From: Dysidea avara
Taxonomy: Eukaryota > Porifera > Demospongiae > Dictyoceratida > Dysideidae
NCBI RefSeq assembly: GCF_963678975.1
Contig: NC_089281.1
Coordinates: 1 to 64,000, forward strand
Direction of reading: 5' to 3'
Length of the DNA stretch: 64,000 nucleotides
Of the stretch, positions 11,042 through 62,450 are shown piece by piece. The notes beneath the pieces were generated by a model that saw only the letters and a list, made by a program, of their open reading frames with translations, had not been told where the DNA came from and made no database searches. Position 1 is the first letter of the stretch. Each line of letters opens with the position of its first letter. The translations under genes were made by a program, and so were the position numbers.

Positions 11042-12643
11042 TTAGGGGGAAGGCACCCGACCCTCTGATAGTACAAGGTCAAGTGCCCTATGGCTGATGG
11101 GACAACCACTGTGGGAGCGTGCCCCCCTAAGGCACGCAATCGCTGAGCGGAGCAACGAGAAGCTGATGCGACAACGTAGCCAAGACATCGCGCTGCTGTA
11201 GGGAACTTCTCTCTTCAGGGACAGTAAGTAGGCTAAACGTTTGTAAAAGATGCTGGTACATCCACTGATTCCACCAAACGTTGAAAAGACTAATGGGGTA
11301 AATGAACCCATCTCAACCTCCCTAATCCTCTGCTCATATTTCCTACGTTTCTCCTTTTCAAATCTCCGATACAATGAAGCCACTGGTGTAGCACGGTATG
11401 ACGAAGCAGTTGGATTAAACACCTTAACATCAAAGAAAGCCCGTTGGTGGTGACCACCCCAGAACCCAACAGCTGAAACATCCAATCGTGCTCCATCCTC
11501 ACGATTTGCAGTAGCGTATGTGAGTGTTTCACCAGAGAGAGACTGTAAAGGGGGCTCAACACACACATCAGTACAGACTTCTGACAGGATGGCAGCAGTA
11601 AAATCCCTAAGTTCGTTGTGCCAAAGGGTGGGGTAGCCACCTGTAGGGCAGTTCATGGAGTGGTCCACAGAGAATCCTTGACCACAAACACACTGGGTTG
11701 GCAATCCAGATGGGAGCCACCCATAGCGTAAGCAGAGAGCATCACGGAAGGCACCCTTATGCAGAGCAAAACCATGCTCCTCTACAGGCAAAGCGGAAAG
11801 CCAAGAGGAGGCCCCTTTCTCGCTAGACAGTGCCACAATCCTCTGCAGACCAACTGGTAATGATCGACACAAAGTGGCAGCGACCTCATCATACGCTCGA
11901 TGCTTCATTCGTACAACTTCACACTTAGCCGAGCGTTGGGCCTCCAAGGTGTCAATGCTAAATGTTAGCTCCTGCTGAACAATCAAAGCAACAAGCGCAG
12001 AGGTAATCTTCACAGAAGAATCAAACTCAGCATCAGAATGAGATTTGGGATCACAGATACCAAGACCACCCAGTCTAACAGGTAAGGAAAAAAGAGCCCT
12101 CTCCACATCACTAATAGATCTCCCAGTCAGTGCGGGCAAAAGTTGAAGAGAGATGATGTCTTCCAGTGGTCCGAGAAGGGAGGAGATTGCTGGGATGGTA
12201 CGCACAAAATAGGTCCACTTGCTACACAAGCCATGCGTAAATGCAGCATACGCAGCATGAGGGTGAGTTTTTGCAATATTAACCAGCCGGCGAACACAAC
12301 GGGACCATGACTCGACTTTCTCAGTAATGTATGCCTCAGTAAAGGCGCGGGAACCAAGAGCAGCTCTAAGATGACGTTTGCCCTCTACAGTGATGCTCAC
12401 TCCCGTGCCAGCAAACTGTTGTTTGGCTTCATCTAAACGTTCTGGTTTAACAATCAACCATGTCTTCGCAGCATTAGGAAAATACCCATACATGAAGCCA
12501 AGGTCCTTGAGCTTACACCACCAGTCATGCAGGCCCCGCAGAGTTCCCCCAGCCGTCGCATCATCGGCAAACCAGACTTGTGCCACATGGGGATCCTGCA
12601 GTGAGGCAATTAATGGTGTAACGCTGATGGAGTACATAGCCAT
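11042..12643 (-). pseudogene. LINE RT C-terminal half and restriction-like endonuclease
   Basis: Open for 533 codons. The RT active site is VWFADDATAGG about 23 residues in. Just upstream in this frame, before the Met, the sequence reads EGTTQGDPLAMAMY, the conserved RT motif that precedes the active site, so the true protein continues from the 12646-13263 frame through a one-base shift near a C-run at about 12707. Further on, CVCGQGFSVDHSMNC is the Cys/His motif that precedes the nuclease in R2-like elements. RLDVSAVGF and then FFDVKVFNP supply the Asp and Asp-x-Lys of a PD-(D/E)xK fold. Such proteins nick target DNA and prime cDNA synthesis from it. Confidence 0.75.
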
Positions 12644-12645
12644 GG

Positions 12646-13263
12646 CTAAAGGATCGCCTTGTGTGGTTCCCTCAGAAGAAAGTATATGGCAACCATCAAT
12701 GAACAGGGGATGTCTTTCCGGTAAGTGTTAATGAGAATGTTGGCAAGAGGAGGGCACAATGACTGCATATTATGGAGTGACACCTGACGATTAAGACAAT
12801 TGAATGCATTTGAAGCATCCACTAACAATACCCCTTTTGTTGATGGATCAGAATAGATGGATCTCATGGTATGGACAGCCGCCTCACAGCCCGCATCCTG
12901 CCCCGCACACAGCTGAAGTGACCCAGCTGCCTCCAAAATGTCCAGCTTAATGATCAGCAAAACAGCCTTGGCAATGATCCGTCTCACCACTTCGCCTATT
13001 CCAATAGGACGTACTCCGGGGCATTTGTTGAGGGCAATGAGACGACATGCCACCAAAGCATCGATACCACCAGTATCAACACAGGAGATGCACAAACGGC
13101 GAGCAACCAGTGCCAGAGAGTTACACAGATCATCAGATGCCCGCTGGAATGAGGTACAAAGGTGTCTCCATCCATAGGCATCCAGTCCAGATGGGCCTGC
13201 AGAACCCTGAGTTCGAAGGGCAGCACGACGAATCACAGTCCCATCCAGGGCATCAAAAATCAC
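12646..13263 (-). pseudogene. LINE RT N-terminal half (fingers and first palm Asp)
   Basis: Contains LIALNKCPGVRPIGIGEVVR, the fingers motif, and VLLVDASNAFNCLNR, in which Asp is the first catalytic metal ligand. The final 20 or so codons are out of frame because of the shift noted near 12707. Sense and position make it the middle of the same polyprotein. Confidence 0.75.
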
Positions 13264-13321
13264 TGGATGAAATTTTTCATCATTATTTTGACAATGGCTT
13301 GAGGATATCAGGGTGAGCAGG

Positions 13322-14219
13322 CTAACACTGAGGATGTTTCTTCAAAAGTTCATTATAAACGGTCCAAGAAGGAGAGTCTGGATCCAGAGGTGTATCTAGT
13401 TTCATCGGAGCGCCGGAACGCTCGGTGGAATCAATGAGATCGATAGCAGCCTTCACATTGCCACGCAACATGTGGTTAACGGCACAAATGTTCAGTGTTA
13501 TCTGTAGAGTTCTTAGATTGTGCACAAAGACGTTGCTGTATAACTGTTCCTTCATTCAGCAACTCAGCAATCTGGCCTTGCTTCCACAAATCAAGACGAC
13601 GTTCCAAACAAGCAATAAAATCCTTTGACTTAGCAGATCGATGTGGTTTCTGCAGTAAAAGAGCACACATTACCATAGCAGCCTTAATAGCAATACACTC
13701 AAGAGAACTACCCTCCCCATATGCAGCATATAATCTGGCCAATTCCTGAACAAAGGCTTTGCCAACCCTCCCAAATGGGACCACAAACAGGTTACAGCGC
13801 CAGTGCACTAATATATTGTATGCGGATGAAATCTCCTGCACAAAAACCTCACCTTCAACTTCATTCCACTCAAAGGAGGGGGAGGACATACTTAAAAACT
13901 GAGGCAGCTGGGCCACCACGGAGGGGACAGGCTCCACTCCCTCCTCTGCTACCTCAGAGGTGGCAGAAAAGAACGGCAAACAAATTGGACAGATATATTG
14001 CTCTCCATTTCGCACTATTCGCCTCCCTTGAGCCTTGGTAATCCCTATACAGTCTCCATGGTACCAAATCTTACAAGCCTCACTACGAATATCACACGAA
14101 ATCATAAAACGATTGTTCTCTGGTTGTTGGCAAGAACACCACAGCTTGTCTGGAGCGTTGTTCACCTCCGCAGCAGCAGCCACAGCAGCTTTACGTCGTG
14201 ACGAGCGACGCATTTCCAA
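13322..14219 (-). pseudogene. LINE N-terminal region with PHD finger
   Basis: The 247-codon frame 14219-13476 starts with a basic stretch (RRSSRRKAAVAAAAE) and then WCSCQQPENNRFMISCD, IWYHGDCIG and YICPICLPFF. This Cys4-His-Cys3 pattern is a PHD zinc finger. A second overlapping frame (13555-13322) carries the region on towards the RT, implying a frameshift near 13500. PHD fingers read histone tails, so a role in choosing chromatin targets is plausible but inferred. Confidence 0.75.
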
Positions 14220-23835: not shown

Positions 23836-24475
23836 CCACGCCGTGACGTCAGACGCTACCTAACGCGTCGGCCCGAGTATCTCATACCGGGCTACCAATT
23901 CTTCACCATAAAGTAGTACAACACTACTCTGGCAATACTAAATCCGCGTCTAAGGTTGCCTGATGAGTTTCCGGCGTAGAGCTGAAACGAAACCGGTCGT
24001 GACCAGTACGATGGATATTTATAATGGGAAATTCTCAACCCATTTGGTCTCCGTGTAGCTATTACACGACGAATTAAACTTGCCAGTCAAATAATACAAC
24101 TACACATATGGCCATACAGCTATAAACCAAATAGTGAAGATTGTGTGAGTGGCACTCCCACTTGGTGAGACTATAATAGCCACCAGCACACAGTTACAGG
24201 ATAGGTACATAGTTGCCTATACCCACTGTGAGCTACAATTACAATACCACAATCTGAGGTGTATATATATATGTGTATATGTATATATATCAAAACAACA
24301 TTGAGCTACTAAAGAAATACAATCTTTGTTACTATACAGCTACCAAGCTCATGCTTTGGTCAACAACTGACTAATGCATCTGTGCAATATGGTTCCTTTG
24401 CCACTTCAGCTGAGCACAACTGAATGTCTCCACTGTTTGGAGCCTATGGGACGAGCCCTTATTTTACTGTATTAT
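23836..24475 (+). mobile_element. Module B, copy 2 (complete)
   Basis: Begins near 'ccacgccgtgacgtcag' and ends 'actgtattat' just before a telomere-type tract. Contains the only hammerhead of the B type with an intact core. The copy at 44233 starts at the same base and is preceded there by (CCCTAA)n, so this start looks like a genuine 5' end. It directly precedes the RT, whose frame it enters through MHLCNMV at 24374. Confidence 0.7.
23954..24004 (+). ncRNA. Hammerhead ribozyme motif B2 (intact core)
   Basis: Stem I GGTTGC (23954-23959) pairs with GTGACC (23999-24004) using two G-T wobbles. Core CTGATGA is at 23960-23966. Stem II GTTTC/GAAAC closes a 12-nt loop. GAAA is at 23989-23992. Minimal stem III is ACCGGT, self-complementary, so a dimer is the likely active form. 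The cleavage site is after C23998 (GTC). Every invariant hammerhead position that I can name is present. Confidence 0.75.
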
Positions 24476-24495
24476 AACCCTAACCCTAACCCTAA
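24476..24495 (+). repeat. Telomere-type tract joining module B to the Penelope RT
   Basis: 'aaccctaaccctaaccctaa', read in frame as Asn-Pro repeats between module B and the RT domain. Confidence 0.85.
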
Positions 24496-25549
24496 GAACC
24501 TCACCATCGTTGAAAGAACAACACTAAACAAACTGAAGAAGAGAACTGATATTGTTATTAAAAAGGCAGACAAAGGAGACACCATTGTAGTTGAGACAGT
24601 TGAACGTTACACTGTAGACGGAATGAAACACCTGAATGACCCAACAACCTACCTACCAATCCCAGAGGACATCAATCCAAGAATTAGTGCAGCCATTGAC
24701 AAGTACCTGAAAGAAGCAATAGACAAAGGACTACTAGACAGAGACACCTACCATGCCATTAAACCTCCGACCAACCCAAGAACCCCTATCATTTACTTTC
24801 TGAAGAAGCTTCACAAAAATCCAATCTCAGTGAGACCAATTGTTTCCTCAGTACAATCACCGACTAGTAATCTATCCCACTTTATGGACCTACTGCTTAA
24901 ACCTATTGTGAAGAACATCCCTCAAATCCTGACAAATTCAACTGAACTTCTCCGAGAATTACAAGCCATTACCATTCCCGACAATACCATTCTAGCCTCC
25001 CGTGATGTAAGCTCACTGTATACCAATATTCCAACAGATGAAGCAATTGACATTGTCCTAAAGTATCTAGAAGAAACCCAATCACCGCAACAACCACCGA
25101 ATCAGCTACTCAGAGAATTATTAAACTTTATCCTCAAGTGCAACTGTTTCACCTTCTGTAACCTTTTCTATCTACAAATACAAGGCGTAGCAATGGGTAC
25201 AAAGATGGCACCCAACTTTGCGAACATCTTTATGGCAAACTTTGAAGAAAAACACATCCTACAACGACCAGACAAGCCTTACTTTTATAGAAGATACCTG
25301 GACGACATCTTTATCATTTGGACTGACACCACCTCAAAACTACAACAACTTGTCACTGACATCAACAATTGCCACCCTACGATCAAACTAACAAGTGAAA
25401 CATCTACCGAATCCATAAACTATTTAGACTTAACAATCACTATCAACAGCAAGCAATTGACAACCAGCACTTACTTTAAACCAACCAAAACACATTTAGC
25501 TACCTACCAGCAAACTCTCACCACCCAAACTCTACCAAACAAGGAATAG
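24496..25549 (+). CDS. Penelope-like reverse transcriptase (5'-truncated)
   Basis: The frame opens at 24374 inside module B, but RT homology starts at LTIVERTTLNKLKKRTDIVI directly after the telomere-type tract. Motifs in order: VRPIVSSVQSPTSNLSHFMD (fingers), ASRDVSSLYTNIP (first Asp), QGVAMGTKMAPNFANIFMA and RRYLDDIFIIW (catalytic Asp pair). This set is diagnostic of Penelope-like elements, which are related to telomerase RT. The reading frame shifts by one near 25500; the other frame continues NSHHPNSTKQGIVKGE into the endonuclease. The N-terminal domain expected before the RT is missing. Confidence 0.9.
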
Positions 25550-25560
25550 TTAAAGGAGAA

Positions 25561-26400
25561 ATGATCAGAATGTTACGTAATAACTCGGACCAAACAGGCT
25601 TTACAGAACAATCAGACTTCATCAAATACAAACTTGTACAAAGAAACTACAGTAACACCACCATCCAACAGCAAACACCTGATTACAGCCAGAGGACAAA
25701 TTACCTTACTACAACCAGCAAGAAATCATCAGAACACAGAGTCACCTTTATCACAAACTTTGACCCATCCATACCAACAGCAAACATCATCAGAGAACAC
25801 TGGCCCCAGTTACTATGTGAAGACAATCTCAGACGTAGACTTACCACTGGACCGCAAGTATGCTACAGAGCCCCACCTACAATTGGAAAATTATTGACAA
25901 GAGCAGCAATTAACACCACACTTCCAAACAATGAAGCTTCAGTAACGCCTACAATTTGGAAACCACCATCGCTACCAGCAAGAAACATCAAATGCAGAAC
26001 TACAAACTGTGCCACCTGCCCAACACTGACGAATAAAAGCCACTTTACTAGCTACCAGAGAAAGTCTTACCACACATTTGATAACATCTACTCCTGCGAC
26101 ACAACAAATGCTATTTACCTACTTGAATGCTCTATTTGTCAAAAGCAATACATTGGAGAAACAGGTACCACTGTTAGAATAAGAATGAGACACCATCGAA
26201 ACAAATTTACAGCTAAAACTGACCTACCGATCTACCGCCACCCCTTAATACACAACAAAGATTTTTCCATCTACAAACTTACCATAATTGACAAACATGA
26301 TGACAGAAGCACAAGAAAGAAGAATGAAATGGACTGGATCACAACATTAAAGACAAAGATACCCTTTGGACTCAACATCATAGCAAAAAAGCCACCTTGA
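25561..26400 (+). CDS. Penelope-like RT thumb/linker and GIY-YIG endonuclease
   Basis: Continues the RT through one frameshift (about 25500). After a linker with NCATC within a Cys cluster (KCRTTNCATC, the CxxxxCxxC motif typical of EN-containing Penelope elements) comes NAIYLLECSICQKQYIGETG, the GIY-YIG nuclease core, and TVRIRMRHHRNKF with the helix Arg and His residues. The C-terminus NEMDWITTLKTKIPFGLNII is also conserved in the family. The domain nicks target DNA. No internal stop, so damage to this copy seems limited to the frameshift and 5' truncation. Confidence 0.88.
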   Translation: MIRMLRNNSDQTGFTEQSDFIKYKLVQRNYSNTTIQQQTPDYSQRTNYLTTTSKKSSEHRVTFITNFDPSIPTANIIREHWPQLLCEDNLRRRLTTGPQVCYRAPPTIGKLLTRAAINTTLPNNEASVTPTIWKPPSLPARNIKCRTTNCATCPTLTNKSHFTSYQRKSYHTFDNIYSCDTTNAIYLLECSICQKQYIGETGTTVRIRMRHHRNKFTAKTDLPIYRHPLIHNKDFSIYKLTIIDKHDDRSTRKKNEMDWITTLKTKIPFGLNIIAKKPP

Positions 26401-28378: not shown

Positions 28379-31300
28379 ATGGCAGGCTCTCCTTCAGTGA
28401 CAGCCATAGGAGATTGCAGTACATTGAATGAAGGTATGTTTGTATTAACACATGCAACCTGATATACATGTACTGTACAAGATTTGTTGATCATTTGGTT
28501 AGATGAAACTGATAGATGTCTCACTGACAATACTTGTGCCATACCCCACAGCCAGGTTTCACTTGGGTTATATATTATATCCATTTTGATTCTTGCACAC
28601 AATAAAATTAGGTTCAGAGCAAAAGCTATATAACAACTAGCAAGAAGCATAGAAGATTTAACATTGACTACTAAAACATAAGTGTCCACAAGGTGCATCA
28701 TGTGCATGTGTTTGTTTTCAGATGGTGACTCTGATTCTGGCCCTAGAGAGGACATGACTGATTCAGACTCTTCGCCTGCACCATATGCCACAACAAAGGA
28801 GAAATATTTGAACGGATTATTGAAAGGACCTGCCCTATCAAGAAGAAATGTAGATGTTGGATATGTACATGGCAGGGGTCGGACTGCATATGCTGCTAAG
28901 CATTTCCACGCAGGAGATTTTGTGTGTGAATATGGTGCAGTGTGAAGGGTCTACAAGAGTGGACAGGTAGACGAAGGAGAAGAGAGAAATGCCGAACTTG
29001 GGTTGGGCTGTTACTGCCTGGATGCACCATACAAAGGTGTAATGTACACGTTTGATGCAGCACCAAAGTGCAATGACCCTGGCAGGTATCAATGTAGAGT
29101 GTATTCTCTTTTGCTATAGTAGGTCTCTCTAAATAGCATCAAAAACATTTAAACTGTCACACAAATTAGGCTCCACCAGGGTTTCATGCATTGACTGGGT
29201 TTGGTTCAGCCAGTTTGTTTTGTGGCCGTGAGAAGTAAGGTCTATTTTAACTGATAATCTCCTGTGATAATACTCAATTGACGAGACAGTTAGTCTATAA
29301 CCATCACTACATGTACTTTCACAGTGTGAAGTGTTTACATACCTGCATGTATAGGAAGCTAGCCTGTGAGTTCCTCCATCTGTAGCTGCCAGCAAAACGC
29401 AGCTACTTGAACAGTTCACACCACTACCTACACGTAGAAGTGGATATAGCTTTACTTACAACAATTAACCTTAGTACAATACATGAAACATGGAAATCAC
29501 AGTTTATTGCGTGGTATAGCTGACCGTCGATCAGTATAGTTGTTGCAAACAGATTTTTAGTTTCAACATAGGTCCCTATTTCACTATTTAAATTCTCACA
29601 ATGTATTTGTGTAGAAATATATTTCTACATAGAGCATGACATTGTATGTACATGTAATATACATGCATATGTTGTTTTAATGTACATAGGTACATAAACC
29701 ATGCAAGCCACCACCCAAATCTCCGCCTCATGCAGCCAGTTTTGATTGGACAGCAATTGAGAATAGGATTTATTGCTCTGAAAATGATTCAGAAAGGGGA
29801 TGAGCTATTCTTTAATTACCACATCAAAGATAAAGACATCGAGTGGAGGAACGCAGATGCTAAGAAAATTGGAACAACACTGCAAGATGGTAAATGCAAA
29901 AACAAGGAAATCACGTATACTTACACTTTGTTTAAAACCGTGTAGCTGACTTGGGGCCATCCTCAACTAGGAGCGAATGGGCAAAAGCAATAGACATAGA
30001 TGAAGGGCTGACAGAAGGTAATGGTTACAATTATACATGGTGCATGACTACTAGAAAACAAATATTCTATGTTTTAACATTTAGCTAAATACTCCTAAGC
30101 CAACCCTTGTAATACATAACAATGAAATACTCATGGTCTAACCTAACAGCTGTCCTGACACCATCCTCCACTGCAGCTGAATGGCAAAAGAGAATAGAGC
30201 CAGAAGAAGGTAAAGCTAAACAGAGAATTTATGTATATTGTACTTTTTCTATTTGCCATGGGGTTACCTGTGCATTGTAGTTATCAATACCTTGATCTTG
30301 TGTTGGGGTTTTACAGCATAACAATAATTATATACCTGTACCTGAAGTACTATACACCTGTATTTCTTCTGTGGCAGAAGCATTACAGACAGAAGAAGGG
30401 ACAGAAGAAGGGATAGAAGAAGGGATTGAAGAAGGTAATGGTTACATGTAAAAGATATTTGACATCTTTCCGCGACTATATATAGCTCAACCAGGACCAC
30501 TACTAACAGAAGAGATCCATGGTCAATATGAATATAGAAATAAGTCAGAAAACAGTGAGACACTGAAGATGGCATGCTTTTACATTTGTAATACATATTT
30601 TTCAAGATAAAAGATTGACACGGAAAAGACAGAGATTTCGTAAATATTGTCCACTAGAACAGTGCCAGAAGACCCCTTTGAAACTATCTCAACATTTAAT
30701 ACAGTTCCACAAAATAATGGACGCAGATCTAAGACACAGATTATGTAAATCTGCATTGAAAGTTAGTTAGCATGATTTACATTGTTAATCATATACATAC
30801 ATACTGTAGGTAGAAAGTGATACAGAAGAAGATAGTGCTGATGATAAAACATCGTGGTCTTCTAGGAAGGTAACTATACTTAAAATGAATTATAGGCAAT
30901 GCAAAAAAAATTGCATAGTGGTGCCTATAACAACCACCCCAACATGTTAGACCATTATTATAGCAAGCAAGTTCAGATGAATTTTACAGTAGACACTTAT
31001 GCAAATAACTGAATGTATGGTTTAATTAATGTGCCTACGTAGTATGCATGAAAATACATGTTAATGCATGTATATTCCTGCAATCTATAATCATAAATTC
31101 AATAATTCATCATGTGTTTTCTTTTTTAGGTGAGACAGAAATTGTCCCGACATGATTACAGTGATAAGGTCAGCTTAAATTTATTCTGAGTTATAAAAAC
31201 TTGCATGTAAAACAGGAAACCATGAGTCCACCAACAAAAAAGTACAAGGTATGTCGATAAAAGTATTATGCATACACTACAGTATAAGAGGGCCATATTC

Positions 31301-34300
31301 ACACATCGTGTATACTTAACAAATAAAGTTAGCAATTTGACAGACTTTGAAAAGGCAGTATAAGTACATAGAGGGCCTCAGAAAACCTTACATTTAGCTA
31401 TACATGTAATTTAATTACAGAGAGAAAAGGATGACAGCGATAGTGACTATGACGGTGACTACAATGAGTTTACAATTAATGAGGTACAACGTATTACTAC
31501 AATATTGATTACACATACACTATCATAATAGGATCATAGCAAGAACACAGATATCACATGATAATACATGTGACTGTTCTATTAGAGCATATTGATCGTC
31601 AATTACTTTTCCATAACAATTAGCTATAATATTTCTTGTATGACTGTTCTATTAGAGTATCTCAATCTTTTTTTGTGCAAATTTTATTTTTCCAAATGTC
31701 CAATTCACACAAATTTCACCTATTTAGCCAGCATTTTGCTCATTGCTTTTACTCACCTATTATTCTAATTAATTTGCTGGCAAAATTGATGCATCTCTAG
31801 TATTAGACACCAATTTTCATTTTGATGTGACTTAAGTCTTTTGCTCGTGTACCAATTTGTTTCTGTACTATATTGTACATGTGTAATCATTTTAATGACA
31901 AGCAGTAGTAGTATAGTAATTGGTGTACCTGTGTCATTTTCTTTATTAGTGTTTCTTTATACTTTAATTCTCTGCATATGTAGGCACAGCAAGATGAGTT
32001 GCTTTTGGTTGAGCAATACCACCTTGGAACATGTTTTGCAACCGACTTTTGTCAAGATAGCTTTTTTGAATATTTAACGAGTGAGGGAAGAAATCCAGAT
32101 ACCGCAAAAACTGCAGCACGTAGTGTGAATTATTTTTTTACTTACAAACAATATATGCAAAAGACACCACTAAATATCATATTGAATAAAGCAAATATAC
32201 GGGAGTACATTAATCATTTACAGAAAGTAAAGATGTATGCAGGAACAACAGTGCTAGAGAGGGTCGGATGGCTGAAAGCTGCTGTAGATTATCTAACTGA
32301 GGACAACAGTGACAACATCAGACTACATCTAAGGGTTCAGGAGGTCCATAAAACAATAGCCAGGCTGAAGTCAACTATAAGTAAGAAAACCATCAGGGAA
32401 CAGCGTGCTACACAGGCAAGGCTATCAGATGCAAAGGTAAAATAATTATAGAGCTGTACCTAAGGTGTGCTTAAATGTAACTTTATAGCAATGAGATAGT
32501 ATTATAAGTACAGTGTACATAGGCAAGCATGTGGGCATACATGTACTCTTTGAAATTTTCATAACTCACAAAGTTTCATTATTATACATTGTTACACAAT
32601 TCATCTATTTATTGGCTTTATTTTAAAAGCTACAGATTGTACATATTCTGCTTAATGCAATATTGTGCTTATTTGTAGTTTGTACTCACGTGCCCAGTTT
32701 TCATGGGTTCAGTCACTAATACAAGCACAATGAAAATTTTGGAATTTCAAGTTTGATTAGGGATTGTAGAAATAAAAAGTAAGGAAACAAGAGAGGTTGC
32801 TTATACCTGCAGGTATACAAGTGGACATTTACTCCCTAATTCACTCTGTATACCCATGACTAAATTAGGGATTAAATATCCAATTATATACCTGCAGGTA
32901 TAGGCAACCTCCCTTGTTTCCTTACTTTTTATTTATGATCCTTAATTGAACTTGAAATTCCTAATTTTTCATTGCACTTGTTTGTTTACATTTTTGCAAC
33001 ATAATTATGACTAGTGCACCTGCACATACCACATCAAAAGAATGAATGATGTCTGACATCAGCATTAACGTACAAATATTAATTAACGAAAAGTGAAGTA
33101 TCTGTTATGCTTCGTTCAAGCTATGTTCAGCATGTTACACAGCATTTCAAATGAAAACGATACAACAACTGCTCCTACAAGCAATCCACTCACTATGGAA
33201 AATACGGATGATTTTTGCATAGCAAACTATCGAGAACCCATCATGTGCTACCGCGAATTGACATCTTGCAGTACGAAATAGGACACATAGGAGCACAAAG
33301 GTATGCCTACGATGCACTAAATTGTAGCTTCTGCGGTTGACAAAAAGGCACATCTCGGGAAGAAGCGATGTCAAATAGTAAAGAAACCAGTCACGTTATG
33401 CTTGGCTGAAAGCATCAGTCAGGTAGTCAGGTAGTCAGTTAGTAGAAAATTCTGCTAAATACATTTTTTTTTAATTCATAGCAACTTGTATGAAGGGTTT
33501 AGAGTGGCTCTGAAAACATGTTTGGGCTTGGCTATGTCTAACCAATACTGCCAAGCTGTTATGGATATGAAGAGAGGCTGGTTTTGGGGTGATATTAATG
33601 GGCAAAAAACCCTATTCTCCATGATACCTAATATTCAGTAGTACCATATGATATAGTACAATATAACAAAGCTATATGCATTGTTTTATAGATACAGACT
33701 GAAGAATCACCTAAAGTGTTTATAGAAAGTGATGAAGTGGTCAATGCTGTCAATAACGCTATCAGAAGAGCACAAACAACAACTTTATCTTCCCATGATC
33801 ACAAACTAGTGATTGGATATTTGGCTGCGAATCTCATATATGATAATGGACAAAGGCCTGGTGTAATCCAGTACATGGAGATAAATGAATACCTGGAGAG
33901 AAGATCTATTGATGGGCACGAGATAACGTTAGTTTGCAAACACAAAACAGGAATTCAGAGAGGTCCAGCCAAAGTTGTAGTGAGTAACCAAATGATCATC
34001 AGCCTCCTACAGGCATACTACGAAAACATTAGAATGAAACTGGAGGCTGTTAATCAACAGATGACAAAACGATTTTTCTTGTTACCTAGTGGCAATGAAT
34101 TTCGTAAAGTTTACGAATTGATGAATGCCATCGCACTTGAATTTAACATTTCACTACCAACACCTACATCACACCGTAAGCTTATCAGTACTGATGCTAG
34201 TGAGCACTTAAGCGCAGAAGAAATGGCACTCCTTCACAAGTATATGAGCCACTCAAGCCAGACCTCTGACAAGTACTATCAGAAAACAACATTTACGGCA

Positions 34301-34513
34301 GCAATAAAATCCCATAAAAACATAGAAGTTTTATCTCAAAAAAGAAGAGGGTTTACCGCAAAACAAGACAAAGACCTCCTGATGGAGTGGCCTAACACAA
34401 ACACACCTCCTCTATCTGTGTGCAGACTGATTGCTACAAAGTATAGAATTTCTAAGGATGCACAACAAATTCAGGATAGACTGAAATATCTATTAAAGAA
34501 AAATATGTCATAA
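28379..34513 (+). CDS. SET methyltransferase - C2H2 - tyrosine recombinase - SANT fusion gene (14 exons)
   Basis: Exons I infer: 28379-28433, 28722-29085, 29690-29889, 29946-30017, 30150-30209, 30378-30434, 30486-30554, 30607-30761, 30810-30869, 31130-31168, 31216-31248, 31421-31483, 31984-32436, 33692-34513. All introns are GT..AG and all phases agree, giving 834 codons. Order: acidic leader, KMT5A-like SET (about 65-190), two related short repeats and Glu-rich linker, C2H2 finger (Cys307, Cys312, His322, His327), acidic/basic linkers, YR N-terminal helical domain, YR catalytic domain (Arg615, Lys645, Arg722, His747, Tyr756) and SANT-like tail. Codon 93 is TGA (28943-28945). A histone-lysine methyltransferase joined to a DNA recombinase is unexpected; it may be an element protein or a domesticated gene. 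The splice model is by eye. Confidence 0.7.
28722..29889 (+). CDS. SET domain exons (KMT5A/SETD8-like)
   Basis: Exon 28722-29085 encodes GRGRTAYAAKHFHAGDFVCE, the SET opening with 'G.G..A...F..GDFV.EY', and GCYCLDAPYKGVMYTFDAAP. Exon 29690-29889 begins YINHASHHPNLRL, the 'R.INHS' cofactor-pocket motif completed across the junction (Gly139-Arg140), and ends GDELFFNYHIKDKD, the 'GEEL..DYG' motif, with Phe-Asn-Tyr at 181-183. The residues needed for S-adenosylmethionine binding and Lys transfer appear kept; the post-SET cysteines are not seen, as in KMT5A. An in-frame TGA at 28943 interrupts the domain just after CEYGAV. Confidence 0.75.
28943..28945 (+). other. In-frame TGA inside the SET domain
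   Basis: Between CEYGAV and RVYKSGQVDEGEERN the codon is TGA. It is the only stop in the 834-codon model. It may be a TGG or CGA mutation, an allele, a read-through codon or a sequence error. Confidence 0.7.
29946..30209 (+). repeat. Duplicated linker exons
   Basis: Exons 29946-30017 and 30150-30209 encode related peptides (LGPSSTRSEWAKAID and LTPSSTAAEWQKRIE), with the same phase-1 borders and similar donors. They look like a recent exon duplication. Confidence 0.6.
30607..30761 (+). CDS. C2H2 zinc-finger exon of the SET-YR gene
   Basis: RKYCPLEQCQKTPLKLSQHL then IQFHKI gives Cys-x4-Cys-x9-His-x4-His. The paralogue at 40734-40996 has the same finger (CPVKNC...HLIQVHH). It probably provides sequence recognition for the recombinase. 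Confidence 0.65.
31984..32436 (+). CDS. YR N-terminal (core-binding) domain exon
   Basis: Helical domain with SFFEYLTSEGRNPDTAKTAA and NKANIREYINHLQKVKMYAG, ending before a 'gtaaaa' donor. The paralogue at 41443 reads FIDYLQSLSGGNKSYDAAKA and YNYINHLQNNKQFTAST at the same places. Length and layout fit the SAM-like domain that precedes tyrosine recombinase catalytic domains. Confidence 0.7.
32724..32983. mobile_element. Foldback MITE inside a SET-YR gene intron
   Basis: Arms of about 90 bp: 'aaaaagtaaggaaacaagag' with 'cctgcaggtata' on the left and the inverse on the right, ending at 'gcacttg'. The transcript would form a long hairpin between the two YR exons. No coding potential. Confidence 0.75.
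33405..33600. repeat. Dispersed repeat, second copy of the 6.77-kb family
   Basis: 'gtcaggtagtcagttagtag' then sequence matching 6765-6880. Lies in the last intron of the SET-YR gene. Confidence 0.55.
33692..34513 (+). CDS. YR catalytic domain and Myb/SANT-like tail
   Basis: Starts after acceptor 'ttttatag'. Catalytic pieces: DNGQRPGVIQYM (Arg I), CKHKTG (Lys), PTSHRKLISTDA (Arg II), MSHSSQTSDKYYQ (His and Tyr, nine residues apart). The canonical His three residues before Arg II is a Thr. The last 55 residues (FTAKQDKDLLMEWP ... CRLIATKYRI ... IQDRLKYLLKK) have the Trp and helix spacing of a Myb/SANT fold and match the tails of both paralogues. The exon is intact and runs to a TAA. Confidence 0.8.
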   Translation: MQTEESPKVFIESDEVVNAVNNAIRRAQTTTLSSHDHKLVIGYLAANLIYDNGQRPGVIQYMEINEYLERRSIDGHEITLVCKHKTGIQRGPAKVVVSNQMIISLLQAYYENIRMKLEAVNQQMTKRFFLLPSGNEFRKVYELMNAIALEFNISLPTPTSHRKLISTDASEHLSAEEMALLHKYMSHSSQTSDKYYQKTTFTAAIKSHKNIEVLSQKRRGFTAKQDKDLLMEWPNTNTPPLSVCRLIATKYRISKDAQQIQDRLKYLLKKNMS

Positions 34514-40198: not shown

Positions 40199-43100
40199 AT
40201 GGAAAGGAACCCTTTCGAGTCTAACATACATTGTCATGACTTGATCGATTATGCTGATGATCAGAGCTCTACCAATGTTTACTGTACAACTGATCATTCC
40301 CTTACCAGTGTTGAGCAATCCCTTACCAATGTTGCGGAGAGTCCAACTACTACTGCTAATGTAATAATTGCTGTTCAATCTCTTACCAATGTTGAGAGTC
40401 CAACTAGTACTGCTACTAATGCTCAGAATCCAATAACTGCTGTCCATGATCAATCCCTTACCACCGATACACAGAGTCCTATGGCTTTTCAATCTCTTAT
40501 CAGTGTTGATAGCCTTGCTACCAATGTTCACATTCCTATGGCTGTTGAGAGCCCTACTACAGTTAATAATAATGTACAGAGTCCAATGGCTGTTCAAACC
40601 CCTGCCAATGTTGAGAGCCCTACTGTTACCAATGTTCAGAGTCCTACAAGTGTTGCAGCCTGTTGCACACATAAGAGTAAGATGTGTTAGCCTAACATTA
40701 CACATTAGCATAATATGTATGTAGCTATTTTAGGCACATCAATTATTCATTGCAAGATTACAGCACCTTGTGATATTCTACATGGAGACAAAATAGTGCT
40801 AGAGTGCAATCCAGTACTTATGCAATGTACAATGAAGTTACAAGCCAATCAGAGGTTGTCAATGGTTAAAACACTAGATTGCCCTGTGAAGAATTGCCTT
40901 TCATCCAACTTGAAAAAACTTTCCAACCACTTGATTCAAGTACACCACATTAAAAGTAAAGCAAAACGAAAAAAACTGCAGCAGAAAGCGAAAAGAGTAA
41001 GCTCCAAACCCAATCCATGTGAGTAGCTACATATTATTTTCTTATAGAAAAGAAGAAACTTGGAATTATGCAGTGACAAACACCAATGTGCAACCGTTGT
41101 TAGTAAAAATATGCCAGCATAATTGTATACATATTCATACTTTATTACAGGTGCCTCAACTGCAATTGGCAAATGATATCAGCATTCACAACACTACAAT
41201 TGACAGAAGAAGTGATATGGTAAATGTATATAATATATATTCAGTGTATGTATCAATGTAATTCCTCAAGAATGCAGCTGTTGAATCATCACCTGAAATA
41301 CCTTACCGCAAACCAGTTTGCCATGCACGTATCCTTGATTCTGGAAGTGAATCTGACTGTTGTGTAAGTACTCATCACTGCATCATGTATTATTGCACAA
41401 CAGATTTACACACCTTTGACATGGTATATTATCATCTTGTAGGGTAATGGAGGAGAAATACAGACGTCATCGCCATCTGTCTTCGATATAGATGGATTCA
41501 TCGATTACCTACAGAGCTTATCTGGTGGCAATAAATCTTATGATGCAGCAAAAGCAATTGCAGCAGATATTTCATCATTTTTTGAACAAACAAGCCACTC
41601 ATCAACCAACACATATTATGATATTCTGCTTGATTCCAGCAATCTTTACAACTACATTAACCATTTGCAAAACAACAAACAATTTACAGCAAGCACTGTT
41701 TCTGAGAAGCTAAGAAGACTGCGTCAAGCTATTGAGTACACCGAGGCTAGGGAAAACAACCTTAAAGTTAACCAAGAATTGTTTAGTAGGTGTCAACTGA
41801 TTTCAAACCTTTTGGTTAAGTGGGGTAAATCCCTACACAAGGACATAGCAAAACAGAGGAGAAAACAAAATGTAATTTCACAAGAAGGGTTAGGAAAAGA
41901 AAATGTAATTTCACCCTAAGTGTAATTTCATACACTTAGGGTGTTCAATCACTGAAGAAAACAAAATGTAATTTCACCCTAAGTGTAATTTCATACACTT
42001 AGGGTGTTCAATCACTGAATGAACACCCTAAGTGTATGTATCAATGTAATTCCTCAAGAATGCAGCTGTTGAATCATCACCTGAAATACCTTACCGCAAA
42101 CCAGTTTGCCATGCACGTATCCTTGATTCTGGAAGTGAATCTGACTGTTGTGTAAGTACTCATCACTGCATCATGTATTATTGCACAACAGATTTACACA
42201 CCTTTGACATGGTATATTATCATCTTGTAGGGTAATGGAGGAGAAATACAGACGTCATCGCCATCTGTCTTCGATATAGATGGATTCATCGATTACCTAC
42301 AGAGCTTATCTGGTGGCAATTAATCTTATGATGCAGCAAAAGCAATTGCAGCAGATATTTCATCATTTTTTGAACAAACAAGCCACTCATCAACCAACAC
42401 ATATTATGATATTCTGCTTGATTCCAGCAATCTTTACAACTACATTAACCATTTGCAAAACAACAAACAATTTACAGCAAGCACTGTTTCTGAGAAGCTA
42501 AGAAGACTGCGTCAAGCTATTGAGTACACCGAGGCTAGGGAAAACAACCTTAAAGTTAACCAAGAATTGTTTAGTAGGTGTCAACTGATTTCAAACCTTT
42601 TGGTTAAGTGGGGTAAATCCCTACACAAGGACATAGCAAAACAGAGGAGAAAACAAAATGTAATTTCACAACAGCAAGTAAGAGTTGCTCACAATCCAAA
42701 TGAATTCCTGGAGAGCCCTACAATCAATGTCAGTGTAAGAGAAATTTTAGCCAAAGCTGAATCCTCAGAAATCACCAGTTTCGAGCATCTTACAGTAATA
42801 ACCTTCCTGGCAGCAAATGTGATTTTCTCTAATGCACAACGTCCAGGTGTTGTTCAGTATATGACAGTTGAGGAGTTTGAACAGAGAATAGAAACAGGAA
42901 ATAAGCAGATTTTAATAGCAGTTATGGAACACAAAACAGCCGTGCTGGGACCAGCACATATTGTCATTAGTAGTGAAGTAGAAAAACTGATGATCGGGTA
43001 CCTAAACAATGTGAGAGTGCGGGTGCATGCTTCACAACACAGTACAAGATTTTTTCTAACCTACACCGGAAATGAATTCTGCAAAATCAGCGAGAAGATA

Positions 43101-43508
43101 GCTCATGTAGCTAAACAATTCAATGTTAAAACACCAACTGCTTGCTTGCATCGTAAAGTTATATCAACAGTTGGATATGAGGAGCTCAATCCAAAGGATT
43201 ATCAATCACTGAATGAACACATGTCTCACTCACCACATATGGCATACAAATACTATCAGTTTCCAGAAATGGCAACAAAAGCAGCCACAATGCATGATCA
43301 TATAGTAAAACTGACAAAAAAGCAATACTTTACTAAAGAAGAGGATGACTTACTACTGGCAGAGTGGCCGCTAACAGTTTCCAACACTCCATCATTGGCA
43401 GTATGCAGAGAAATAATATCAAGACATAATATCAAGAAATCTGACAAACAGCTACAAGATCATTGGAGAAGTTTAAAAAAGTGTTGTCAGGATGTACAGA
43501 TGGAGTAA
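40199..43508 (+). CDS. C2H2 - tyrosine recombinase - SANT gene with internal duplication
   Basis: Exons inferred: 40199-40676, 40734-40996, 41151-41219, 41271-41363, 41443 onward, with phases agreeing. Exon 1 encodes a low-complexity Ser/Thr/Pro/Val-rich region with repeated NVESPT or NVQSP units and no SET domain. Exon 2 carries the C2H2 finger (DCPVKNCLSSNLKKLSNHL). A 640-bp segment (41244-41883) holding exons 4 and 5 is repeated at 42032-42671. In the first copy the frame dies after VISQEGLGKENVISP. The second copy leads into the full catalytic domain but has a TAA at 42321. One uninterrupted copy of the segment would give about 726 residues. As it stands, no simple splice path gives a full protein unless part of exon 5 is skipped. 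Confidence 0.65.
40734..40996 (+). CDS. C2H2 zinc-finger exon of the second YR gene
   Basis: Borders: acceptor 'gctattttag', donor 'gtaagc'. Finger Cys-x4-Cys-x10-His-x4-His (CPVKNC ... HLIQVHH) followed by a Lys/Arg/Gln-rich stretch (KSKAKRKKLQQKAKR) that may be a nuclear localisation signal. Confidence 0.65.
41244..42671 (+). repeat. Tandem segmental duplication (640 bp copies, 788-bp offset)
   Basis: 41244-41883 and 42032-42671 are almost identical; the clear difference is A41533 to T42321, creating a stop in the second copy. A 148-bp unique junction lies between them. Confidence 0.9.
41884..42031. repeat. Palindromic junction sequence inside the duplication
   Basis: 'caccctaagtgta' and 'tacacttagggtg' form an exact inverted repeat around 'atttca', present twice, and a third half-copy closes the junction. 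'caatcactgaatgaacac' also occurs in the gene's own coding sequence at 43204. It may be a filler made by template switching during the duplication. Confidence 0.65.
42231..43508 (+). CDS. YR core-binding, catalytic and SANT-like exon of the second gene
   Basis: Unlike the 28-34 kb gene, core-binding and catalytic parts are in one exon. Catalytic motifs: SNAQRPGVVQYM, MEHKTA, ACLHRKVISTVG, MSHSPHMAYKYYQ. Tail: FTKEEDDLLLAEWP ... CREIISRHNI ... LQDHWRSLKKC, a clear SANT-like pattern with two Trp. All catalytic residues present in the paralogue are kept. The TAA at 42321 lies before the core-binding domain is complete; translation from the Met at 42453 would still include the catalytic part. Confidence 0.75.
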
Positions 43509-44213
43509 CTGTATTGGAATACCAGTATTATATACCAAAACATGATAATAACATACTAAATTATCTGATTTAATTGATTTGTATAAAGGAGTTATCTACT
43601 GTGACCAGATCTGCAAAAATTAAGAAGTCTTATAGCCTTTCTAATATTCCATGTTTAACGAGTCATCACTCATCATGTGTTTAACGTATTGTCTTACAAT
43701 TACACTCAGAAATAGTGCTACATTGAGAGTGTAAGGTGACCAAAGTTTAGGCTGGTACCATGCTCACAATTCAAGTTATAGATTGCGAATTACATGCAAT
43801 TGGGAAGGCTTTAAGACCCCTTTTGCAGATCCGGTCACAAAATTCTATGAGCTTGGAGGACCATAACTTAGTGTTCAAAAAATATGATGATGTTCACAGC
43901 ATATATTAAACTATGTTGGTGCTAAGCACTGCCAAAATTTCCATTCAATTCTATTATCCAAGTTAAAACTATAAATTGTAAAAATTGGTAAATGGAACAT
44001 GCATGCTTTTTGCAAATCTGGTCATGTATACTATTCTTTGCTTATATATAAGTACTATTATACCATGAGTATACATGCCTTTTGCAAAATTTATCTACAA
44101 TAATTATATAAGGCTTATATGCAAGTGCAAACTATACAAATACAGGCATAGTTGCATACATTATTGAGAGGTAAACACAAGGGATTTTCAGGGTAAAGAC
44201 ACCAGGTTGAAAC
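43509..44213. other. Unassigned AT-rich sequence
   Basis: Contains fragments related to the 7.2-kb inverted-repeat element ('gcagatccggtcac' at 43825; 'gcaaatctggtcatg' at 44014). No gene. Confidence 0.45.
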
Positions 44214-44232
44214 CCTAACCCTAACCCTAACC
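44214..44232 (+). repeat. Telomere-type tract before module B copy 3
   Basis: 'ccctaaccctaaccctaac' abuts 'ccacgccatgacgtcag', the 5' end of module B. Confidence 0.85.
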
Positions 44233-58634: not shown

Positions 58635-58900
58635 CCAAAGATAGCTACGAAGTAAAAACAAGTCAAAGACTGAGCTACCATACTTATTGGAAGTGTTATT
58701 TGTTTCATTCCTTTTACAAAATAATCCAAGAAAAGAGACACTCAAATTATTGGGAGGTTGTGAAACATGGCGGATGAAGAAGCAGCATGTGAGCTCGAGA
58801 GAGCACACACTATTAGAGGTGGCCATCAAGGTGTCGTGACCAAACTTATCCGCGAAGCTGAGAAAGTATAACTGCTGCAACAGAGCCTTTAGATGCTTCA

Positions 58901-59894
58901 GTGAAAAACAGACTGAATGTCATTAAACAACAGTTAGAAGGAAAGCTTAGCACATTAGATGGTATGAACAAGGATATTTTAGAACATTGTGATCCTGGTG
59001 TTATTGTCACTGAGATTGAAAAATCAGATGCTATTGTGACCAAGGTGATCAGTTGTAAATTGAAAATAGATGAACTTCTAGCTGTAACTTCAAGTAGTAC
59101 AAGTGCCCACCCATCTACAACTCCTGTTGCTCCAACTACCATCCCAGTGGTAACCTCTAAACCTTGTCTGCCCAAGCTGACCTTGCCCAAATTCAGTGGA
59201 GATGTAGCAAGATGGACTACCTTTTGGGACTCTTTTAAGTCGGCTGTTGATGAAAATACACAACTTACTAAGATTGATAAATTCAATTACTTGTATAATC
59301 TACTAGAGGGTAGTGCCTTTCGATGTATAAAGGGTTTGCCCTTAAGTGAAGACAATTATGACACTGCGTTAGACCTTCTTAAGCAGAGATTTGGTAAGAA
59401 GCTACAAATTATTTGTGCACACATGGATGAGATTGTCAAATTGCCAAAGTGTGCAAATTATCTTCACCATGGCTTGCGTTCCTTGTATGACCAAATAACT
59501 GTGCATATAAGAGGTCTTGAGGCACTCTAAGACCTACTTAAATCAGTATAGAATTTTGCTGATTCCTATTGTAATGGCGAAATTACCTAAAGAAGTCAGA
59601 CTCAGAATAGCTCGGGATAGTCAAGATGAAGTTTGGAACATCAATGACTTAATGAAGGTGGTACTATCTGAAGCAGAGGCCAGGGAGGCTAGCGAAAACA
59701 CCAAGCTTAAGCCAGCTATGCCAGGAACTGGAAGACATTCTCATGGAGGCCATAATTATACCGCAAGTGCCTTTGTGTCTCAGAATTACCACATCAGATG
59801 TGTATACTGCAATACACCACATTACTCGGCTTCTTGTGATAAAGTTTGTGATGTGAAGGAACATAAGGACAATTTGATAAAGACTGGACGTTGA
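58901..59894 (+). pseudogene. BEL/Pao Gag
   Basis: Frame 58901-59530 carries the conserved Gag block KLTLPKFSGDVARWTTFWDS and KFNYLYNLLEGSAFRCIKGL. A frameshift near 59520 leads to 59517-59894, with ILLIPIVMAKLPKEVRLRIA and the first zinc knuckle CVYCNTPHYSASC. A TGA at 59892 precedes FNCLRANHKTRECL, the second knuckle. Confidence 0.8.
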
Positions 59895-60385
59895 TTTAAC
59901 TGTCTAAGGGCCAACCACAAGACAAGGGAATGCTTGAGTACAAGGACGTGCAGACTGTGTCAGCAGAAACACCATCAGTCAATATGTAGTTCACTCTCGC
60001 AGAAGATAGAGCCATTCATCCCTTCTTCAGTGTCACCAACTTCTCCAAATGCAGATGATGGTGTTGAAACCTCCAACAATACCAGCAGTAACAAGAATAC
60101 GGAGACTATTTTATTGCAGACTGCTAGAGCCATTGCCTACAATCCTGAAACTGGTTCCTCCTCCAGAGTCTGAATCCTTTTTGATAGTGGAAGCCAGCTG
60201 TCATACGTCAGTGAGCAATCGTGTTCTAGACTCAAGTTGAGACCTGTTCATACTGAAAAATTGCAAGTTAATACATTTGGTGGTGAGCATTTTAAGACTA
60301 GAAGCTGCAAGCTGGTCTGATTTGAATTGTGTAAGCCTGGATTGACTGAACGCCATTCAGTAACTGCTGTAAGCTATCCTATGAT
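59895..60385 (+). pseudogene. BEL/Pao zinc knuckle and aspartic protease
   Basis: CLSTRTCRLCQQKHHQSIC is a Cys/His knuckle. After a TGA at 60171 comes LFDSGSQLSYVSEQSCSRL, in which Asp-Ser-Gly is the protease active site. A further TGA near 60318 breaks the remainder. Confidence 0.75.
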
Positions 60386-61989
60386 ATGTTCACCTTGCCT
60401 TCAGCAACAGCAGTGAGAGAGTATGCTCACTTGTCCGGCTTAGAGCTGGTGGATTACTCTGGAGGAACAGACAATGATGGGATAAATGTGTTGATCGGCT
60501 CTGATTTTTATTGGAAGCTTGTAACTGGAGAGGTACGTCATGGAGTTGTTGGTTCTGTAGCCATATATAGTAAACTAGGGTGGCTTTTGTCTGGCTCAAA
60601 TGGTCCCTCACAATTTGCTGGAGATACCTGTACACATCTGATCTTAACTAAACCCAATATGACAAGTATTCCTGAAGTTCAGGATCTTGTTCAAGACATG
60701 CTACGCAAGTTTTGGGACACTGAAGCAATTGGAATTGTAGACACTGAGCCAGAGGTGACAAAAGAATTTTTGAATCACATACAATTTCATGACAATCATT
60801 ATGAAGTATCTCTACCATGGAAGGAAGGACAATTTAACCTCCCTAACCATTTTTTTATCAGTATGAATCGTTTGAGGCACCTTCAACATAAACTCCTGAA
60901 AGATCCAGATCTACTCACAGAATACAATCATATCATACAGGAACAACTACAGAAGGGCATAATTGAACAAGTTGACTCATCAATGCCAGGACCATTGGAG
61001 AAGTGCACCATTAATGAGAGAGGTGAGTCAGTACATTACTTACCACACCACGCCATCATTCGCCGGGAGAGAGCCACCACTAAAATTCGTATCGTTTATG
61101 ATGGCTCTGCCAAGCTCAGCAATTCAAATCTCTCTCTCAACGATTGTCTCCAGACTAGCCCCAACTTAATTCCGAAGTTGTTTGATGTGCTAGTTCAATT
61201 TAGATCTCATCCTGTAGCCATCACTGCAGACATTCAGAAGGCCTTCCTTATGATAGGCATAGTTCCTGCTGATCGCACATACTTAGATTTTTGTGGTTTC
61301 AGGATCCAAGTAAGCTAGATAATCCCATATGTCAATTCCGTTTCACTAGAGTTGTGTTTGGCCTGAAACCATCCCCTGCAATATTGGGAGCGGTAATTCT
61401 TCACCACCTTGACAAGTACAGTGGTGAACAAACTCAGTTAATTGAACAAATGAGGAAGGCACTTTACATTGATGACCTTATTACTGGCACTGACAATGTT
61501 GCCTCAGCCTTTCAGATATATTCTAGAGCTAAGCAAATTATGAGTGAAGGTGGCATGAATTTGAGGAAATAGAATAGCAATTCTCCAGAACTGCTTCAGC
61601 AAATAAGACAAGTAGAGATGTCACATGACGATGGTCCTAGTTGTAACTTGACACCAGTATCTGAGGAAGAGCAAACTTATGCTCAGTTCCACACTGGTTT
61701 GTTGAACCCTGCAGAAGGTCAGCCACACAAACTGTTGGGTGTCTTGTGGGATAGTCTACTTTTAGTTGACCTTGCAGAGTTGTTGAACTATGCTATCAGT
61801 CTTCCTGTTTCTAAACGATCCATTCTTAAAAGTAAGTGCAAAATATTTGACCCTTTAGGACTGCTCAGTCCATTTGTTGTTAAGCTGAAGCTGTTGTTTA
61901 GATCCTTGTGTTCTGATGGAGTCAATTGGAATGACCCAGTAGGATCAGAAACCATAAACCATGGAGACAGTATGTTAGTCATAGGGTGA
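60386..61989 (+). pseudogene. BEL/Pao reverse transcriptase
   Basis: 60386-61318: LIGSDFYWKLVTGEVRHG and LGWLLSGSNGP (protease/RT linker), then YLPHHAIIRRERATTKIRIV, VYDGSAKLSNSNLSLNDCLQ, ITADIQKAFLMIGI (first Asp). Frame shifts near 61305. 61291-61572 has FRFTRVVFGLKPSPAILGAV and ALYIDDLITG (catalytic pair). A TAG at 61570 separates the connection domain FDPLGLLSPFVVKLKLLFR. Confidence 0.85.
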
Positions 61990-62085
61990 ATGAGATCAGA
62001 CATTACTCACTTCCAGAAGAATGGAATCATTGTCCAGGGACGATCAATCCAGCAGATATGCCATCAAGAGGACTTACAGGTTGTT

Positions 62086-62450
62086 ACAGTGGAGTTGTTC
62101 CAATAGTGACTGGATAAGTTAGGGAGATAGTCAAGCGATTTCTTCACGGTTGAGACTAATCTGGTGAGTATTAATGCTGCCGACAATTCAAGTCTGGGGA
62201 TTGTCTGAGTCTTCAGTGGGGCTACGCGCGTCTTAGAAACAACAATAGTTGAAGATATGCCCCTATTTTCATAAAAGGTTCTCAAATAAACTACAGCTCC
62301 GTATGCTTGGGCCGATGCATCACTAAAACCATGTAATTCAAACAATACTGGTTTACGGGAACTGTCAAAGTAACACCTGGGCACTCTTATCTGGCCAAGG
62401 GATTTGAACTCATGAATTAGCGACCTCCACTTGATAAGAATTTCTCTTCA
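62086..62450 (-). pseudogene. BEL/Pao RNase H segment, inverted
   Basis: On the minus strand: IKWRSLIHEFKSLGQIRVPR, LHGFSDASAQAYGAVVYLRT (first RNase H Asp), TIPRLELSAALILTRLV (Glu) and HYWNNSTVTTCKSS. This belongs between RT and the NPAD segment on the plus strand. The plus-strand NPAD piece (HCPGTINPADMPSRGLTG, 62030-62085) sits before it, so the block was both inverted and displaced. Confidence 0.8.

Follow-up and report, generated by a model that had tools for sequence, protein, structure and literature searches.

Predicted in-phase fusion of a KMT5A-like SET domain to a tyrosine recombinase in a multicopy gene family of the sponge Dysidea avara

A gene in which a KMT5A-like SET domain is joined to a putative tyrosine recombinase (YR) lies in the first 64,000 nucleotides (bases 1-64000, called here the window) of contig C10 of Dysidea avara, at the left end of that contig. 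Contig C10 has 30,661,186 bases in an assembly of 550.8 Mb and 108 contigs; the species is described as having 15 chromosomes (PMC12909245). Fourteen exons bounded by GT..AG signals were rebuilt on the plus strand between positions 28379 and 34513 (Table 1). They sum to 2,502 bases, or 834 codons including the final stop (833 plus stop), with consistent phases and no frame break, and all joins 3' of the zinc finger are in phase 0. Introns are 51-168 bp long from the second SET exon (exon 3) to the finger exon (exon 8) and 47-500 bp long from the finger to the core-binding exon. These exons and phases are exactly those of the original prediction, which overlooked an in-frame TGA at codon 93, in the middle of a SET exon and inside the SET domain. 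Because of this TGA a full-length protein cannot be made from the window gene in its present sequence.

The National Center for Biotechnology Information (NCBI) protein of this locus, P0001, has 704 amino acids and is 99% identical to the conceptual protein over 85% of the query. It is labelled 'uncharacterized protein' (isoform X2 in UniRef) and represents a cluster of 5 sequences from a single contig. P0001 starts at a methionine 3' of the TGA and continues through the rest of exon 2 and exons 3-14 to the end of the gene, the sole difference in the joins being four residues of the exon 6 repeat that it lacks. This independent annotation, whose gene models may be partly ab initio, thus joins half a SET domain to the finger, core-binding domain, YR and tail. 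The last intron of the gene harbours a foldback at 32721-32981 with inverted arms at 32770-32846 and 32858-32934 (77 nucleotides, 90% identical) flanked by outer arms of 56 nucleotides (79%), which resembles a small foldback element.

Table 1. Features of the fused gene and of a second family member in the window
Feature	Position	Strand	Basis
Exon 1 (start codon, 19 codons begun)	28379..28433	+	Splice signals and phase; absent from the 704-residue NCBI protein P0001
Exon 2, N-terminal half of KMT5A-like SET	28722..29085	+	Pfam SET over both halves; SETD8/KMT5A among best PDB matches
In-frame TGA, codon 93, within SET	28943..28945	+	Read from the rebuilt model
Exon 3, C-terminal half of SET (NDPGRYINHA and GDELFFNY motifs)	29690..29889	+	Pfam SET; present in P0001
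Exons 4-7, acidic repeat-rich linker	29946-30017, 30150-30209, 30378-30434, 30486-30554	+	Joins common with P0001, save for one 4-residue unit of the exon 6 repeat
Exon 8, C2H2-like finger C-x4-C-x9-H-x4-H	30607..30761	+	Pattern; C10-right gene and C4 locus have a finger in the same position
Exons 9-12, small, phase 0	30810-30869, 31130-31168, 31216-31248, 31421-31483	+	The C10-right gene has such exons in the same position
Exon 13, putative helical core-binding (SAM-like) domain	31984..32436	+	Pfam matches below cut-off
Exon 14, putative YR catalytic domain and SANT/Myb-like tail, stop 34511-34513	33692..34513	+	Family profile against known YRs; helix prediction for the tail
Active-site codons R 33854-33856, K 33944-33946, R 34175-34177, H 34250-34252, Y 34277-34279	33854..34279	+	Invariant in family alignments A3 and A5; in register with XerD
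Second family member, overall	40880..43508	+	Finger, core-binding matches, YR and tail
Its finger	40880-40951	+	
Its core-binding matches, two in tandem	41482-41862, 42246-42650	+	
Its YR and tail	42678-43481	+	
(CCCTAA)3	44213..44230	+	About 10 bases past 44202, where the block of the second gene stops matching its C15:116-kb copy

The fusion recurs in a second gene of the same contig. The gene near the right end of C10 (C10-right), on the minus strand with its SET exon to YR exon running from 30654434 to 30650819, is built of 12 GT..AG exons whose in-phase joining gives 829 codons and a terminal stop, with no stop inside. It has the same order as the window gene: a SET domain contained in one exon, then after 48 bp a C2H2-like finger, followed by small exons in phase 0, the core-binding domain, the YR and the tail. 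Its NCBI protein, P0004 (925 amino acids; one protein, from a cluster of 13 sequences), is identical to the rebuilt model except for one additional internal stretch and for a longer N-terminus, which the model omits. A near-copy at the right end of C6, within a block of 99.5% identity, has no stop and differs from C10-right by three amino acids in 829 codons. A SET and tyrosine recombinase fusion, as originally proposed, is thus borne out by P0004 and the C6 near-copy; each is a homologue with both domains, which that proposal named as lacking if it were wrong. A chance join is unlikely because the NCBI model shares the joins and an independent paralogue has the same order with in-phase joins. 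The fusion is very probably an evolved gene, as judged from these sequence models.

Other copies are in various states of decay. The locus at C15:79-82 kb keeps the SET-to-YR order with half of the front SET exon missing. At C15:485-489 kb the front of SET and most of the YR are lost, and this copy matches the window only from position 28946 on. The decayed copy at C14:670-671 kb is 95% identical to the window and has a sense codon in place of the window TGA; it has its own indel and missing stretch, lacks the finger and core-binding parts and has a YR tail 42-56% identical, with a second SET match nearby at C14:668 kb. At the left end of C11, a telomere array (bases 1-1188) adjoins the finger exon of a gene of the C10-right type (L056/L048) whose SET is cut off. 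This contig end is a chromosome end, broken off and healed, that was captured in the assembly.

The window SET scores above the Pfam cut-off (1.5e-12 over both halves with the stop read as X; 1e-8 for the exon 3 half alone). Its best PDB matches are the SET-domain protein 4ldg (1.1e-8), SETD8/KMT5A (1.3e-8) and KMT2A (5e-8), while the C10-right SET matches SETD8 at 1.7e-13 compared to 4.3e-6 for EZH2. On the basis of best or near-best match the domain is assigned to the KMT5A type. The claim that the window encodes SET stands for the match but not for a complete domain, whose uninterrupted frame is found in the C10-right and C6-right copies. Cut at codon 93, the window copy should lack methyltransferase activity, with its YR frame still open.

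SET is 61.5% identical between the window and C10-right genes, compared to 20.9% for the core-binding domain and 28.4% for the YR plus tail. It is thus their slowest-changing part. With 0.38 nonsynonymous and 2.06 synonymous substitutions per site (the latter near saturation), this points to purifying selection during the greater part of its history. The three SETs compared (window, P0004 and P0005, a protein described below) carry F in place of the Y found in the ELLYDYG of unmutated KMT5A. Going by work reported on SETD8 mutants, this F could favour di- or trimethylation.

The recombinase half has no match above threshold to any library model used. The finger C-x4-C-x9-H-x4-H was identified from its pattern alone. 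The domain searches suggested in the original prediction returned SET in the window protein, with no Pfam match to zf-C2H2, phage integrase or a transposase. For the predicted core-binding domain the matches stay below the Pfam cut-off (Phage_int_SAM_1 9e-4, SAM_4 0.013); the corresponding region of the relative P0003 is predicted to be all-helical with moderate confidence. For the proposed Myb/SANT tail, sub-cut-off Pfam matches occur in relatives (PF00249 in 5 of 12, best 0.058; PF13837 in 3 of 12, best 0.0023) and modelling predicts a three-helix fold, with a predicted local distance difference test (pLDDT) score of 85-92 for the block, so the tail is best called Myb/SANT-like. A PDB profile match of the tail to the TRF2 Myb domain (E 0.95-1.7) was too weak to be used as evidence.

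The catalytic domain of exon 14 has no YR match in Pfam, and PDB profile searches gave none either; PHROGs and NCBIfam yielded chance-level matches only for the four proteins given. Its identification comes from the active site. Residues R486, K516, R593, H618 and Y627 of P0001 are among the invariant positions of alignment A3 (12 rows, 11 distinct YRs as the C4 YR appears twice), and the R, K, R, H and Y are also invariant in alignment A5 (7 rows), the rows being selected for open frames. Profile-profile alignment with hhalign of the family against XerD, XerC, FimB, FimE, lambda Int and Cre covers 144 columns with an E-value of 1.5e-4, which refers to one single comparison, and places the family R-K-R-H-Y on the R, K, R, H and Y of the known recombinases; the seven-row set gives E 6e-4. 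All five residues are kept in 11 of the 18 family open reading frames (ORFs) extracted. In the HxxR motif the R is kept and the His is not: position -3 is T or another residue, and H or Y immediately precedes the R. The His of this motif varies among YRs. The YR assignment made from the window alone is thereby sustained, the register of the active site being its convincing part and the alignment probability a modest one.

A genome search with the YR exon gave at least 54 matches, 27 of the 54 with at least one stop. Merging within 3 kb leaves at least 44 loci, 26 on C15 and 18 elsewhere. On C15, 24 of the 26 loci lie in the first 2.6 Mb, a far wider reach than at the other contig ends with matches. 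Off C15, 15 of the 18 loci are at most 50 kb from a contig end, and one truncated internal copy is found on C2 (at 27.1 of 54.7 Mb). C10 terminates on the right in a real telomere, and the SET-YR gene, taken from its NCBI start, begins ~5.3 kb from it. The copies at the C10 and C6 right ends and the C11 left end are parts of end blocks of 99.5-99.6% identity.

The window itself holds a second member of the family (Table 1), with no SET match between 34513 and its start and with a 90-95% identical copy at C15:116 kb. Four other loci (L016, L017, L021 and L033, at C15:1.76 Mb, the C7 right end, C6:246 kb and C11:10.5 kb) have a common 3' end at a (CCCTAA)2-4 run, past which they continue into four different sequences. 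The end of the block of the second window gene is a fifth that resembles these junctions. YR-targeted insertion was dropped as the sole reading of the junctions because a 5' truncation capped by the same repeats is also seen.

The search of the protein database with the conceptual protein, in which the best 7985 candidates by shared words were scored and eukaryote relatives sharing few words would be missed, found one protein (P0001). Further searches brought two YR relatives without SET (P0002 and P0003) and then, with the SET region, P0004 and P0005. No relatives were confirmed in viral contigs or prokaryote genome contigs. P0005 is a 535-amino-acid ORF that combines a C48 protease (2.1e-14) with a SET domain that aligns to 75% of the C10-right query at 69% identity. 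C48 is also found next to the recombinase: near the left end of C4 (L044, C4:16-25.9 kb), exons with Ulp1/C48 motifs (tblastn 5.5e-5) precede those of a finger, a core-binding domain and a YR in the same orientation, with a minisatellite array of ~3 kb in between. They probably form one gene.

It is proposed that the window locus belongs to a multicopy family of Crypton-like YRs and that one branch of this family acquired a KMT5A-like SET upstream by capture. The probability of this interpretation is roughly 0.6. What is observed is that the gene models are joined, that they recur in divergent copies, that R-K-R-H-Y aligns and that SET is the most conserved part. The family core would comprise the finger, core-binding domain, YR catalytic domain and Myb/SANT-like tail, to which in the SET branch the captured domain is predicted to be spliced in phase. 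The finger and tail would bind DNA, the YR would cut and rejoin it through its tyrosine so that the element is moved or repeats are exchanged, and SET would methylate histones at the site of the protein. Mobility, the DNA target and the histone target are what we infer beyond the gene structures. A YR core preceded by interchangeable front modules (C48, SET) speaks for a mobile element more than for an established host gene.

Several results weigh against this interpretation. SET is absent at E 0.01 from the 6.0-8.2 kb of DNA upstream of each of ten YR loci (C15:529k, 1.73M, 116k, 1.79M, 1.80M and 13.12M; C4; C7; C6:246k; window 42.7 kb), the upstream stretch of C15:1.79M containing another YR gene. 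The family therefore does not need SET, which from the compared loci is a feature of one branch. The evidence for the fusion comes from gene models. Movement of the copies that were compared involved larger subtelomeric blocks, and their comparison defines no target duplications, empty sites, element ends or common 5' end. Pfam scans of family members gave no integrase match above threshold (Phage_integrase reaches a sub-cut-off 0.0036 in one of the 12 members scanned, over profile positions 25-166 of 172) and no DUF3504 match at E 1. Five of the 18 ORFs are cut short or lack the active-site stretch (L013, L014, L015, L023 and L024), and two have substitutions (R for H in L025, N for K in L031). 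The hhalign probabilities are modest, at 51% for the six-recombinase comparison and 29% for the seven-row set. AlphaFold models of the YR part are poor (mean pLDDT 53.5 and 55.5) and gave no significant Foldseek match. The top Foldseek row for the second model, XerA at E 2.3, was discarded as evidence.

A narrower alternative concerns only the window copy, which may be a pseudogene of the fusion that makes nothing. The TGA at codon 93 and the broken state of the close copies on C14 and C15 make this a serious possibility, if short of the probable case: the remaining frame of 704 codons is open with all five YR residues present, and it is represented in the protein database by a cluster of 5 sequences.

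Another explanation is a subtelomeric host gene family, in which a domesticated recombinase fused to SET would act on chromatin or recombination at chromosome ends and the copies would arise by subtelomeric duplication. The crowding of off-C15 loci within 50 kb of contig ends, the C10-right gene so near its telomere, the nearly identical end blocks of C10, C6 and C11 and the strong constraint on SET all agree with it. Domestication is nevertheless rather unlikely in view of the full active site in 11 of 18 ORFs, which differs from domesticated Crypton genes as described in PMC3212892, of the stops in half of the 54 matched stretches, of the truncated internal C2 copy and of the association with C48.

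A variant in which the family targets telomere-type repeats at chromosome ends, via the Myb-like tail and the YR, and brings along SET or the SUMO-type protease C48 to modify chromatin there would build on the 3' end shared by four copies, the fifth block end and the C11 telomere placed on a truncated SET-YR gene. It appears improbable, and break, healing and exchange between chromosome ends explain the repeat joins without YR targeting. That two adjacent genes, a KMT5A-like one and a YR, were fused by annotation only is very improbable: the SET ORF of C10-right does meet a stop directly past its splice donor, making an unspliced SET-only product possible, and NCBI models are possibly part ab initio, but the SET-finger introns are short in both genes, the core-binding exons have no in-frame methionine near their start and the same in-phase order is kept although the YR parts are only 28% identical.

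The capture of SET by one branch of a Crypton-like family would place a predicted histone-mark writer and a site-specific recombinase in one protein, of which a stop-free annotated copy exists. It opens the question of whether mobile DNA is able to mark the site at which it lands, in a family found mostly near chromosome ends, where both recombination and chromatin are important.

The window contains further elements. A reverse transcriptase (RVT_1 1.7e-8) followed by a GIY-YIG ORF (3e-5) lies at 24371-26400, which we take to be a Penelope-like arrangement, with (CCCTAA)3-type repeats nearby at 24478, 26865 and 27523. An ORF of 292 amino acids at 8289-9167 matches Pfam Endotoxin_N (3.8e-7), here on a sponge chromosome. 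Large retroelement-looking ORFs occupy 11042-14219 on the minus strand, the most upstream one with a PHD finger (8.4e-7); they were read as reverse transcriptase by eye, without a Pfam match. At 58862-62447, DUF1759 (6e-32, ORF 58862-59530) is followed by further ORFs in what presumably is a BEL/Pao-type element.

Among known systems the family is most readily compared to Cryptons (CryptonA and CryptonI of animals, CryptonF and CryptonS of fungi and oomycetes), likewise multicopy YR genes with the active site kept. Its C48 companion recalls the oomycete CryptonF and CryptonS elements, reported to carry a C48 peptidase (PMC3212892). It differs by the added N-terminal SET, finger and SANT-like tail, animal Cryptons being described in the same source as having no C-terminal domain and no terminal repeats (PMC3212892). 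Domesticated Crypton genes (KCTD1, ZMYM2/3/4, QRICH1 and KIAA1958) also join a YR-derived domain to other domains, but according to that account they lost most of the R-H-R-Y residues (PMC3212892), the full active-site set being kept in 11 of the 18 sponge ORFs.

Canonical KMT5A has its SET at the C-terminus (PMC10368294); KMT5A/SETD8 is the best or near-best PDB match of the sponge SET, yet differs in the position of the domain and in the Y of ELLYDYG. Hydractinia and sea urchin are reported to have 65 and 61 KMT5A-like genes, respectively, mostly SET-first, the longer of which share a conserved C-terminus left unnamed in the text (PMC10368294). 'Integrase' and 'recombinase' are both absent from the main text of that paper (PMC10368294). 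Compared by description only, these genes resemble the sponge fusion in the N-terminal-side KMT5A-like SET, the longer protein and the many divergent copies. They may be its relatives, and a fusion of this kind may account for the puzzlingly large numbers of SET-first KMT5A-like genes that sea urchins and hydrozoans have.

Searches of titles and abstracts in the open literature, with most subscription journals outside, found no description of a SET and tyrosine recombinase fusion. A known parallel is SETMAR, a single gene of primates in which SET is joined to a mariner DDE transposase. Both combine SET with a DNA-moving enzyme, the partner being a YR in the sponge and not a mariner DDE transposase. 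To our knowledge the sponge fusion is the second case, beside SETMAR, of SET teamed with such an enzyme.

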